A stretch of 40,119 nt of DNA, from NCBI RefSeq assembly GCF_021531475.1, contig NZ_JADYTX010000018.1, positions 1 through 40,119 on the forward strand. Reading direction: 5' to 3'. Below, piece after piece: positions 21,126 to 37,879 of the stretch (within the stretch, counting starts at the first letter, position 1; each line of letters begins with the position of its first letter). A model generated the notes under the pieces. The model made no database searches and was not told the DNA's origin. It saw nothing but the letters and a program-made list of their open reading frames with translations. A program made the translations under genes and the position numbers. The DNA comes from Fusobacterium perfoetens (GTDB lineage Bacteria; Fusobacteriota; Fusobacteriia; Fusobacteriales; Fusobacteriaceae).

Positions 21126-21150
21126 ATAAAAATATAAGTTGGAGGAAAAT

Positions 21151-22104
21151 ATGATAATAAAATTATTAGAACCATTAGTAGTAAAAAAAGAAGTTATTGA
21201 AAATCTTAGTAGTGAAATAAAAAAATTGGGGCATGAATTTGTTTACTATAATACAAAAACTACTGATGTTGAGGAATTAAAAGAAAGAGCAAAAGACGCT
21301 GACATTCTTATGATTGCAAATAATCCTTTACCTAACGAAGTTATAGAAGTGGCAAAAAATTTAAAAATGATATCTGTGGCTTTTACAGGATTTGACCATA
21401 TTGGAACTCTTGCAAAAGAAAGAGGGATTGTTGTTTGTAATGCTGCTGGATATGCTAATAATGCCGTGGCTGAACTTGTAATTGGACTTACTTTAGACCT
21501 TATGAGAAATATTAATAAATGTAACTCTGTTATAAGAAAAGGTGGTACTATTGCTGGACTTATCGGTGGGGAAATAAAAGGAAAAACTGTTGGTATAGTT
21601 GGTACTGGAAGAATCGGTACTATGACAGCTAATCTTTTTAAATGTATGGGAGCTAATCTTATCGGTTATGATATTACAGAAAATCCAAAAGCTATTGAAT
21701 TGGGATTAAAATATGTAGATATTGATACTTTAATGAAAACTTCTGATATAATCTCTCTACATCTTCCATTAAATGATTCTACAAGAGGATTTATCTCTAA
21801 AGAAAAATTATCTCTTATGAAAGAAACAGGAATTTTAATCAACTGTGCTAGAGGAGCTGTTGTTGATAATAATGCTTTAGCCCAAATTTTAAATGAAGAA
21901 AAAATCGCTGGAGCTGGTATAGATGTATTTGATATGGAACCACCTATCCCAAGTGATTATCCATTACTAAATGCTAAAAATACAATCCTTACTCCTCACG
22001 TTGCTTTTGCATCTCACGAATCTATGATTATAAGAGCTGAAATTGCTTTTGACAATGTTAATAAATATTTAGCTGGGACTCCAATAAATGTAGTAAAATT
22101 ATAA
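21151..22104 (+). CDS. D-isomer-specific 2-hydroxyacid dehydrogenase
   Basis: A 317-residue NAD-dependent dehydrogenase that interconverts a 2-oxo acid and a D-2-hydroxy acid. The Rossmann dinucleotide loop is GTGRIG (151-156), with acidic D174 after the second strand favouring NAD. The catalytic triad is R234 (NCARGAVVD), E263 (DMEPP) and H283 (TPHVAF). A TTG 12 bases upstream is open, but ATG at 21151 has GGAGG five bases before it. The length and motif spacing match glyoxylate/hydroxypyruvate/phosphoglycerate dehydrogenases; the substrate is undecided. It has its own unit after the hpf terminator and runs into the palindromic repeat. Confidence 0.87.
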   Translation: MIIKLLEPLVVKKEVIENLSSEIKKLGHEFVYYNTKTTDVEELKERAKDADILMIANNPLPNEVIEVAKNLKMISVAFTGFDHIGTLAKERGIVVCNAAGYANNAVAELVIGLTLDLMRNINKCNSVIRKGGTIAGLIGGEIKGKTVGIVGTGRIGTMTANLFKCMGANLIGYDITENPKAIELGLKYVDIDTLMKTSDIISLHLPLNDSTRGFISKEKLSLMKETGILINCARGAVVDNNALAQILNEEKIAGAGIDVFDMEPPIPSDYPLLNAKNTILTPHVAFASHESMIIRAEIAFDNVNKYLAGTPINVVKL

Positions 22105-22115
22105 TAATTTAATTA

Positions 22116-22337
22116 AAAAGGGCTGTCGCATTTTTTATTAAAAAGAATATAGATTAAAAATTACGGAAATTATGGAGAAAAATTAGATTTATAAAGCGAT
22201 ATTAAACGCTAAAAATCACAACTGTTTGAGCGTCAGCGAGTTTTGTGATTTTAGTGAAATGAGCTTTTAATAAATCAATTTTTCGTAATCTGTAGTAATT
22301 TTTAATCTTATATTTCTTAAATTTGTGACAACCCTTT
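22116..22337. repeat. Palindromic repeat element, copy 1 (MITE-like)
   Basis: A non-coding element whose two halves are imperfect inverted copies for about 80 bases each. The outer ends are GGGCTGTCGCA and TGTGACAACCC, an approximate terminal inverted repeat. Next inward, GATTAAAAATTAC faces GTAATTTTTAATC. The centre has an AAATCACAA/TTGTGATTT hairpin. The shared core is 22138-22320 and is about 93% identical to copy 2 at 36778-36959. It lies between two convergent genes, with no transposase. Terminal inverted repeats, small size and no ORF suggest a miniature transposable element; it could also serve as a bidirectional terminator. Confidence 0.8.
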
Positions 22338-22347
22338 TTTATATTTT

Positions 22348-22704
22348 TTATTCTACTGCTGCAGTTACTACTATTTCAACAAGAAGTTCTTTTTCTGCTA
22401 AAGCTGCTTCTACACAAGCTCTTGCAGGAGCGTGTCCAGCTTCGACCCAATTATCCCAAACTTCATTCATTTCATCAAAATAACTTATATCTTTTAAATA
22501 TATTGTCGCCATAAGTATTTTTGATTTATCACTACCAATATCTTTTAGAACTCTTTCTATATTAGCTAAAGCTTCTTTAGTTTGAGTTTGAACATCTTTT
22601 TTTCCTTCATTCTCTTCAAAACAACATTGTCCACAAAGATAAGCTACACCATTATGAATTACAGCCTCACTAAGTCTTTTTCCAACATTAAATCTTTTTA
22701 TCAT
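22348..22704 (-). CDS. ridA: RidA family reactive intermediate deaminase
   Basis: RidA hydrolyses reactive enamine/imine intermediates released by pyridoxal-phosphate enzymes such as threonine dehydratase. The 118-residue protein has the family features: GQCCFEENEGKKDVQTQT, ALANIERVLKDIGSDKSKIL, and the conserved arginine in APARACVEAALAEK with the C-terminal VEIVVTA. The first in-frame codon is a GTG at 22707, but the ATG at 22704 is five bases after AGGAGG. A candidate promoter (TTGACA at 22763-22758) lies just after the hcp stop, so it may be transcribed alone or by read-through from hcp. Confidence 0.88.
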   Translation of the reverse strand: MIKRFNVGKRLSEAVIHNGVAYLCGQCCFEENEGKKDVQTQTKEALANIERVLKDIGSDKSKILMATIYLKDISYFDEMNEVWDNWVEAGHAPARACVEAALAEKELLVEIVVTAAVE

Positions 22705-22769
22705 CACTACCTCCTCAAATATTATCTCTATTTCACTTTATAATATTTAAGAAAAATTGTCAAATTATT

Positions 22770-29405: not shown

Positions 29406-29485
29406 AGTCTTTTATCAATTAATCAACCACTTTTTTATAACTTAATAGCTATCAGATGTCTGATACTCCAAGTGGAGGGTTAATT

Positions 29486-29571
29486 TTACTTCCTTTCGCC
29501 AGCATTATCTGGTTCAAGTAATAAGAGTCGAGGTCGAACCTCCTCTCAGCCAGTTACGGCTCCCCTAGTAA
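29486..29571 (-). promoter_or_regulatory. TPP riboswitch (THI element) controlling thiSGHFE
   Basis: Read on the minus strand the conserved blocks occur in order: GGGGAGCC, GGCTGAGAGG, CTTGAACC-AGATAATGC, and GGCGAAAGGAAG. P1 is TTACT (29571-29567) with AGTAA (29490-29486). The 5' part TACTAGGGGA is complementary to the first arm of the downstream terminator, so an antiterminator can form when thiamine diphosphate is absent. Binding of the ligand would close P1, release the terminator arm and stop transcription. Confidence 0.95.
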
Positions 29572-29603
29572 GTTATATTTATTTAATTTTTAGTTGATAA
29601 TGT

Positions 29604-33499: not shown

Positions 33500-33587
33500 T
33501 ATCCATCAAGAGAGACGGAGGGACTGGCCCTGAGATGTTTCAGCAACCTACTTTATGTGTGGTGCTAATTCCTGTAGATGGCAGATA
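33500..33587 (+). promoter_or_regulatory. SAM-I riboswitch (S-box) controlling metQ
   Basis: Conserved S-box segments are present in order: CAAGAGAGACGGAGGGACTGGCCC, then a short P3 stem and GCAACC, then GGTGCTAATTCC with the following stem. P1 can form between CCATC (33503-33507) and GATGG (33577-33581), extended by TATC/GATA. A terminator follows. SAM binding should stop transcription of the methionine-type binding protein. Confidence 0.92.
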
Positions 33588-35418: not shown

Positions 35419-36753
35419 ATGGAAAATAAAAATATTTTAGAAAATGAAAATATAACGAAACTATTTTTTAAATTTGCTATTCCAAGTATTTTTGGAATGC
35501 TTATAGTTTCACTTCAAATTATGGTTGATGGAATGTTTCTTGGACAAAACGTTGGTCCGATGGGACTTGCTGCTGTAAATCTTTCTATGCCCCTTATCAA
35601 TTTTCTTATGAGTATAGGACTAATGATTTGTGTAGGGGGAGGAGTTATCACAAGTATTTACAAGGGAAATAAAAAAATAAAAAAATCCCGTGAAATTACT
35701 ACTATCACTTTGGGACTTTTGATATTTGTTTTAGAATTTTTATCTATTATTGTCCTTATAAAACTTGATTTTTTTATCAAAGTTTTGGGAGCTAATGAAA
35801 ATATATACCCTTATGTAAGAGCATATATGATTCCTATGATGATTGGAGCTTTTTTTTATACTGCCCCTATTTTTACAGAAACTTTTGTAAAAATAGAGGA
35901 AAAACCAAATTTTGTTTTTATTAGTGGACTTACTTGTTTAGTTTTTAATGTTATTTTAGATTATCTACTTATTGTAAGACTTAAATTAGGTATGACTGGA
36001 GGAGCTAGTGCCACTATTATAGCTTGTGCTTTTGGATTCTTTGCTCTTTTACCAAATTTACGTTTTAAACTTCCTAGAAAAAAAATTGGATATTACATAA
36101 ATGATATAAAAAATATTTTCTACAACGGAAGTTCTGAGATGCTTTCAGTAGTTTCTTCAACATTTGCTATGTATCTATTTAATCTAGTTATTATGGATAA
36201 AATTGGAGTTTTGGGAGTATCGGCTCTGACAATAGTATTTTATATCAATCAACTTTTAAATATTAGTCTTTATGGACTTTCCCAAGCTTTACAGCCGTTA
36301 GTTGCATATAATCTTGGAGCTAGACATCTAGATAAAATCAAAAAAGTTTTAAAAGTTTCTCTTATTACAGGGGGAAGTTTGGGAGTTATTGCATATGTGG
36401 GAAGTCATCTTTGGGGAACTCTTATTATTAAAATTTTTTCAAAAGGTAATCAAGAGCTTATTGAGCTAGCAGGAACAGCATTATTTTATGTGAGTTTTGC
36501 TTACTTAATTTCTTTTGCAAATATAATCTCTACATCTTTTCTGACTTCTATTGAAAAACCTTTAGAGTCAGTTATCGTTTCAATGGGAAGATCTATTATA
36601 TTTATTGCTATTCCACTATTTATTCTTCCAAATATTATTGGCTCAAAAGGGATTTGGCTTTCAATTCCCATAGCTGAGATTTTATGTTTGATAGTTAGTT
36701 TCTATCTTATGAAAAAATCTATTTTATACTTAGAAAGAAAATTAAAATATTAA
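35419..36753 (+). CDS. MATE family efflux transporter (MerR-controlled)
   Basis: A 444-residue inner-membrane antiporter with about 12 membrane segments. It opens ENITKLFFKFAIPSIFGMLIVSLQIMVDGMFLGQNVGPMGLAAVNLSMP, the usual MATE N-terminal helix pair, and has the second pseudo-repeat from about residue 235 (NGSSEMLSVVSSTFAMYLFNLVI). MATE pumps expel cationic drugs or metabolites using sodium or proton gradients. The best AAGGAGG (35390-35396) lies 22 bases before this ATG, an abnormal distance; an in-frame stop (TAA) lies shortly upstream, so no earlier start exists. It is divergent from the MerR gene and ends at repeat copy 2. Confidence 0.88.
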   Translation: MENKNILENENITKLFFKFAIPSIFGMLIVSLQIMVDGMFLGQNVGPMGLAAVNLSMPLINFLMSIGLMICVGGGVITSIYKGNKKIKKSREITTITLGLLIFVLEFLSIIVLIKLDFFIKVLGANENIYPYVRAYMIPMMIGAFFYTAPIFTETFVKIEEKPNFVFISGLTCLVFNVILDYLLIVRLKLGMTGGASATIIACAFGFFALLPNLRFKLPRKKIGYYINDIKNIFYNGSSEMLSVVSSTFAMYLFNLVIMDKIGVLGVSALTIVFYINQLLNISLYGLSQALQPLVAYNLGARHLDKIKKVLKVSLITGGSLGVIAYVGSHLWGTLIIKIFSKGNQELIELAGTALFYVSFAYLISFANIISTSFLTSIEKPLESVIVSMGRSIIFIAIPLFILPNIIGSKGIWLSIPIAEILCLIVSFYLMKKSILYLERKLKY

Positions 36754-36777
36754 TTATTGAGACTTTCATATTTTTAA

Positions 36778-36959
36778 TTAAAAAGAATATAGATTAAAAA
36801 TTACGGAAATTATGAAGAAAAATTAGAGTTATAAAGCGATATCGAATGCTAAAAATCACAACTGTTTAAGCATAGCGAGTTTTGTGATTTTAACGAGATG
36901 AGCTTTTAATAAATCAATTTTTCGTAATCTGCAGTAATTTTTAATCTTATTTTTCTTAA
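36778..36959. repeat. Palindromic repeat element, copy 2 (core only)
   Basis: It matches the core of copy 1 (22138-22320) over 182 of 183 positions with about 12 substitutions and one deletion, in the same orientation. The outer terminal repeats seen in copy 1 have decayed (GAGACTTTCAT on the left). It lies between the convergent MATE and LysR genes. One base pair in the central stem has changed on both sides: ACGCT/AGCGT in copy 1 is ATGCT/AGCAT here. Confidence 0.8.
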
Positions 36960-36961
36960 GT

Positions 36962-37879
36962 TTATAAAATATTTATTTTTTTACTATTTTTTTCTGAATA
37001 ATATTTTATCATATTTTCAAGTTCTTGTGCTGCTATACTTAGACAATGTCTTTTTCTTTTTACAAAACAAATATTTCTTTCTGGAATTTTCTCTTTCAAA
37101 TTTAATCTATATACTGTTTCTTCTGATAAATTTTCTAAAAATATTTCAGGAAGAAAACCTATTCCTAAATTAATTTTCACAAGAGGGAGTATCTGATCTA
37201 CCGTAGCCACTTCAATACTTGGAGAAAAATCAATCCCCTCTTTCAAAAAGAAATTTGAATAAAATTCATATGTTTTTGTCTGTTTGTTCATAGAGATCAA
37301 AGGATATTCTACTAATTCTGATAAAGATAATTTTCTATTTACCAATTCTAAAAAAGTCGATCCACATACAGCTATCTCTTTAAATCTTTTTATTACCATA
37401 TTCTCTAGGTTAGAGGTAATTTCAAAAGGAGAAGTTATCACAGCCATATCCACAATCCCCTCTTTTAGAGCAGTAATTGCTTGAGGAGTTGAGTAATTTG
37501 ATATACAAATTCTAACTTTCGGATATTTTTGTTTATATTCTTTTAATACAGGCAAAAGAAAAGAATGAAGAGCAATCTCACTTGCTCCAAGAAAAATTGT
37601 ACCACTTTGAAGATTTTTATTCAGAGCTATCTCTTTTTCCCCAGCCTCGATTTGTTCCACCGCTATTTTTACATATTCAAACATTTTTTCCCCCTCAGGT
37701 GTTAAATTAACTCCTTGATGAGATCTAATAAATAAAGTACAGCCTAACTCATATTCCAAAGTTTTTATTATCCTTGTAATATTTGGTTGATTATTTTGTA
37801 AAAACATAGAGGCTCGTGTTATACTTTTATATTTTGCCACATAATAAAAAACTTTATAATACTCATAATTTATATTCAT
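36962..37879 (-). CDS. LysR family transcriptional regulator
   Basis: A 305-residue LTTR. The N-terminal helix-turn-helix is NYEYYKVFYYVAKYKSITRASMFLQNNQPNITRIIKTLEYELGCTLFIR (about 4-52), followed by the linker helix and a substrate-binding-like effector domain (about 90-290). The ATG precedes a normal LTTR N-terminus. It is divergent from a MATE pump and probably controls it, as is usual for LysR genes that face their target. The effector is unknown. The 3' end abuts repeat copy 2. Confidence 0.9.
   Translation of the reverse strand: MNINYEYYKVFYYVAKYKSITRASMFLQNNQPNITRIIKTLEYELGCTLFIRSHQGVNLTPEGEKMFEYVKIAVEQIEAGEKEIALNKNLQSGTIFLGASEIALHSFLLPVLKEYKQKYPKVRICISNYSTPQAITALKEGIVDMAVITSPFEITSNLENMVIKRFKEIAVCGSTFLELVNRKLSLSELVEYPLISMNKQTKTYEFYSNFFLKEGIDFSPSIEVATVDQILPLVKINLGIGFLPEIFLENLSEETVYRLNLKEKIPERNICFVKRKRHCLSIAAQELENMIKYYSEKNSKKINIL

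Follow-up and report, generated by a model that had tools for sequence, protein, structure and literature searches.

We lean towards reading the two palindromic elements that lie between convergent genes in the window, the whole 40,119-nucleotide stretch of Fusobacterium perfoetens DNA analysed here, as members of a MITE/REP-like mobile hairpin family of a new variety, with the copies here acting as bidirectional terminators. Such a family would consist of non-coding hairpins, about 150-250 bp long, whose tip, TGTTTGA-GC-GNA-GC-GAGTT, is near-invariant and would be recognised by a putative enzyme as single-stranded or extruded DNA, and whose stems differ completely by lineage while their pairing is kept. 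The copies in the source genome would have come to occupy the place of the terminator at the 3' ends of genes, where the outer stem GGGCTGTTGCA/TGCAACAGCCC and its A/T tracts may end transcription of one or both flanking genes.

The surprising part is the recurrence of the tip across phyla. Repeated palindromes are usually defined species by species, whereas the tip described here, some 20 nt long, is near-identical in unrelated phyla, and its supporting stems have changed in sequence through double substitutions that match. From this recurrence one may suspect a mobile structured DNA of an undescribed kind; families from different phyla were compared at the tip, and any claim of common ancestry is limited to it. 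As such, the tip may provide a means of detecting a widespread element, mobile or structured, and a concrete starting point in the search for its recognition protein, and the copies described here would be an example of mobile hairpins replacing terminators and located at rearrangement points.

Copies in the window and in related genomes

Copy 1 (22120..22334, + strand) has its full length of 215 bp and intact ends, and lies 15 bp after the stop codon of a 2-hydroxyacid dehydrogenase gene (21139..22104, +) and 13 bp from that of a RidA-like gene (Ribonuc_L-PSP; 22348..22707, -). Copy 2 (36759..36972, +; core at about 36778-36959), whose outer stem has decayed, is located between the genes for a MatE transporter upstream (35419..36753, +) and a LysR regulator downstream (36962..37879, -), and its right end touches the LysR stop codon (36962). 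Each copy folds into one long hairpin, and the two are near-palindromic, in the same orientation between convergent neighbours and 92% identical over 195 bp, much as the earlier note had described them. The covariance model R1 scored the apical modules of copy 1 (22201..22264, +) and copy 2 (36841..36903, +) at 81.1 and 67.7 bits, with the next match in the window at 13.6 bits. The conserved tips are CTGTTTGAGCGTCAGCGAGTTTTG in copy 1 (22222..22245, +), with a 2-bp stem GC/GC, the loop GTCA and the flanks TTTGA and GAGTTT, and CTGTTTAAGCATAGCGAGTTTTG in copy 2 (36862..36884, +). Rfam also places two riboswitches in the window, TPP (29474-29576, -; RF00059) and SAM (33500-33584, +; RF00162).

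That the likeness of the two copies is far beyond chance is confirmed by about 30 further matches in the same genome. The source genome (2.0 Mb, 92 contigs) has about 18 copies of close similarity and a further dozen of greater divergence, and the R1 apex model matches it in 31 places. Distribution among congeners is patchy, with 4, 3 and 29 copies in some and none detected in three others; R1 likewise found no match in several close relatives of the source genome, while matching 49 of the 98 genomes of this phylum, often at numerous sites and in at least 54 places in the highest, and 20 of 398 genomes of the Natronincola phylum group. Copies resemble one another within a genome and their ends differ by lineage, and this distribution pattern is that of a mobile element. 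In keeping with a MITE, the element is short and non-coding, has terminal inverted repeats and is present in multiple dispersed copies. In a proteobacterial genome, 6-bp target duplications, scored with 5 of 6 matching bases accepted, accompany 22 of 32 copies against 1.5 expected; none was seen around the source-genome copies, in a list that also held chance pairs.

A conserved tip on covarying stems

The apex has the form CTGTTTGA-GC-GNA-GC-GAGTTTTG on a covarying stem. An exact 24-mer, ACTGTTTGAGCGTAGCGAGTTTTG, was found in 54 contigs from at least 7 phyla of the genome collection, compared with 0.002 expected, and tops a differently sequenced stem in each carrier. Its carriers comprise a proteobacterial MAG pair (dozens of copies), Campylobacterales, Selenomonas, Natronincola, Thermoactinomyces, Desulfuromonas, Bacteroidota MAGs and Nitrospirae MAGs, of which the MAGs may be mis-binned. 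Among 198 genomes of the phylum to which one Bacteroidota MAG belongs, a gapped tip pattern matched the starting genome alone, which makes the exact tip a rarity in that group. The tip is present in two viral contigs, phage and plasmid records gave no match, the element matched no curated Rfam family, and literature searches for the tip and for the element ends returned no relevant match.

In an alignment of 36 tips (A1), 85% of stem cells were paired, compared with 66% after shuffling and 33-45% after sliding, and both-side changes occurred at 13 of 14 pairs with almost no G-U, so that pairing-preserving changes exceed the controls as expected of a structured fold; RNAalifold independently recovered the same fold. 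The inner 2-bp stem alternates between GC/GC, AC/GT and GT/AC and is always paired. A second alignment (A2) of 73 distinct matches, which was fitted to the model and whose pairing thereby leans towards the structure, contains 727 Watson-Crick, 12 G-U and 5 A-C combinations at the inner pairs (columns 14-66 inward), and its tip loops are mostly GNA or GNNA, with GAA, GTA, GCA, GATA and GTAA dominating. Along the arms, G-T mismatches outnumber A-C in some families, as selection at the RNA level could also produce, and the test is ambiguous over the whole arm. With the same apex across phyla and strong covariation, a structured element is better supported than the earlier note could know.

The compensatory change which that note had seen between ACGCT and ATGCT is real, but the partner is a different base: the C of ACGCT goes with the G in TTTTAGT and the T of ATGCT with the A in TTTTAAT, that is, C22207-G22254 in copy 1 and T36847-A36893 in copy 2, a pair that by eye is Watson-Crick in 26 and G-T in 3 of 29 copies. 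The mutually exclusive central stems proposed alongside it found no support, as the ACGCT/AGCGT alternative is perfect in only 8 of the 29 copies, contains G-U in 12 and is broken in 9; the stem of the AAATCACAA/TTGTGATTT type is paired in 28 of 29, in five different sequences.

Both d(GCGAAGC) and GNA loops are known to form DNA minihairpins of exceptional stability (Hirao 1994 and Yoshizawa 1997, cited in PMC11101458; for GNA loops, also work cited in PMC6582339). Given the low G-U content and tip loops of the GNA kind that are stable as DNA, we infer that the tip structure is probably selected at the DNA level. Of the structured RNA suggested earlier, the structure stands, and the same two features point, indirectly, to DNA instead. 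Here we tentatively speculate that the copies might even belong to an undescribed class of mobile DNA spread across many phyla, whose defining feature would be neither a gene nor the ends; it would be a folded single-stranded tip, a tandem G-A beside a GNA mini-hairpin, read by a putative conserved enzyme, and the element would have been recruited as a terminator time and again.

The outer stem and the position at gene ends

The outer ends GGGCTGTTGCA/TGCAACAGCCC, which had been taken for IS-like, are mostly a terminator stem, as they are also found coreless, at many loci, in hairpins of 29-36 bp with A- and T-runs alongside, several of which have the common loop TTTTTTATTAAATTTGCAAC. We read them, from their letters and surroundings, as the stem of a terminator whose loop contains the core. 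In copy 1, the left arm GGGCTGTCGCA (22120..22130, +) is terminator-like, follows an A-run and recurs as a solitary stem at L140, L142, L158 and L162, and the right arm TGTGACAACCC (22324..22334, +) is followed by a T-run. The outer-stem letters vary by locus yet stay paired, as in GGACTG/CAGTCC, and the adjoining base also pairs (A-T 12, G-C 8 and T-A 3 among 35 rows, including a few that the search pattern assigned wrongly). The solitary hairpins may be either empty targets or deletion products, since the core has a TTAAA repeat at each edge that is compatible with both. A full IS with the same ends, which the earlier note had envisaged, was not found: among the TIR-like matches in four assemblies (G000, G001, G003 and G006; by eye) no pair bounds a transposase-sized element, and in the assemblies searched, within the limits set by contig breaks, there were neither ends bounding an element of 0.4-3.5 kb nor ends in common with an autonomous IS. 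One exceptional pair of ends, matched by eye, lies 3.8 kb apart and encloses a chance coding match.

For 28 copies of the source genome, an ORF heuristic assigned the gene context as convergent in 11, tandem in 14 and apparently divergent in 3, and the convergent share exceeds that of the window junctions (5 of 39 by hand count; p 0.0004). Most full copies lie 5-60 bp from a stop codon, and 12 of the 14 copies in tandem pairs run antisense to the gene upstream of them (p 0.013); in other genomes this bias (17 of 26) does not reach significance. As in an intrinsic terminator, a stem comes right after the stop codon and is followed by a T-run, with a loop far longer than usual; a simple terminator scan did not score the copies because of its loop limit of 8 nt. 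In several related species, the genes orthologous to those for the 2-hydroxyacid dehydrogenase, RidA and MatE end in ordinary, unrelated intrinsic terminators placed directly behind the stop codon. Judging by its placement, the element is very likely used as a terminator in the source genome, and the earlier idea of a MITE serving as a bidirectional terminator gains support in that copies abut stop codons and replace the terminators found in relatives. The copies are many, but rather than lying at random positions without pairing-preserving changes, they are found at gene 3' ends and carry such changes. In addition, the two genes beside copy 1 map to separate contigs in those congeners that matched both of them, and for copy 2 only the MatE side was matched in G001, G003 and G004, so that each of the window copies is probably located at a breakpoint of synteny.

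Known systems and alternative explanations

The SPRITE, BOX and RUP repeats of Streptococcus pneumoniae are non-coding, structured, terminator-like, clustered and nested in each other (PMC10969869). The element described here, compared by description, shares these features. ERIC and Correia elements are imperfect palindromes of about 100-200 bp, intergenic, patchy and present in many copies, which can be located at gene 3' ends and affect transcripts (PMC10969869). Our element shares with them the imperfect palindrome, the intergenic, multi-copy and patchy occurrence and the capacity to occupy gene 3' ends. To our knowledge, however, SPRITE, BOX and RUP have no cross-phylum tip, and ERIC and Correia elements are each limited to one or few families and have no such conserved apex. 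Like the hairpins of REP/RAYT systems, those described here occur near stop codons and are probably recognised as single-stranded DNA; REPs are 20-40 nt long with a GTAG-type tag, whereas our element is longer and two genomes with high copy numbers are without a Y1 transposase. The 23S rRNA intervening sequences, associated with the IVP protein (PF05635), are similar in being long hairpins within the loop of a host hairpin, but PF05635 is absent in most carriers.

A screen of partner proteins near copies identified none as the mobilising protein. The Y1 (RAYT, IS200-like) transposase was rejected as a general partner, as it is absent from G017 (24 copies) and G035 (at least 54). The hairpin was found near none of 28 other Y1 loci, and a Y1 transposase next to the repeats was seen only at L252 (2050-4000), where a RAYT (NF047646) between two hairpin copies sits among its own GTAG-type REPs (GTAGGGGCGAC...GTCGCCC). 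The IVP protein of 23S intervening sequences was also discarded, being never beside a copy, and GxxExxY proteins were not found near copies.

A structured RNA, namely a 3' UTR or small RNA whose tip is the binding site of a conserved RNA-binding protein or RNase and whose mobility is incidental, would account for the strong covariation, the copies at gene 3' ends and, in some families, a slight excess of G-T over A-C mismatches in the loop strand. We nevertheless consider it unlikely, as G-U makes up only about 1.6% of the inner pairs, Rfam offers no match, the distribution is patchy and multi-copy, and the antisense orientation of 12 of the 14 tandem copies implies that the tip would be present in the mRNA as its complement. 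A still smaller chance is given to a classical MITE, derived by internal deletion from a DDE insertion sequence that has the ends GGGCTGTTGCA and with a hairpin that is junk, which would explain the terminal inverted repeats, the multiple copies and the 6-bp duplications of the proteobacterial family. It is disfavoured by the conserved tip, as the ends vary by lineage while the tip is constant and junk would not retain it; moreover, the ends occur alone as terminators, and in the assemblies searched they bound no element of 0.4-3.5 kb, leaving aside the 3.8 kb pair.

Mobilisation of a REP-type hairpin by a Y1 transposase appears quite improbable: repeated intergenic hairpins are typical of REPs and the RAYT at L252 does lie between two copies, but that enzyme has REPs of its own around it, neither high-copy genome has a Y1_Tnp match and the 28 other Y1 loci have no hairpin nearby. 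We give very little credence to ordinary terminators that converged, with repeats spread solely by homologous recombination, for although the terminator position and the synteny breakpoints of both window copies relative to congeners would fit, the 24-nt tip is identical across phyla and one family has target duplications.

Several minor features of the copies were also observed. At L026 / L145 (1048-1340), a type-2 core lies within the arms of a type-1 copy, as in a nested or chimeric element. The proteobacterial element occurs in deletion forms of 115 bp (L170, 515-629) and 67 bp (L168, 2438-2504) and in an expanded form of 562 bp (L055, 5277-5838), and two of these three variants have intact target duplications. 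A second hairpin, such as GGTTACTTTTC...GAAAAGTAAC, is present just 3' of the element in several lineages (L263-L282 of G036, L085, L100, L101, L061 and L089), and in the G036 copies (L263-L282) the hairpin follows a stretch of about 200 bp made up of CACGAATGGACAC / CACAGAGGACGCAGAG repeats.
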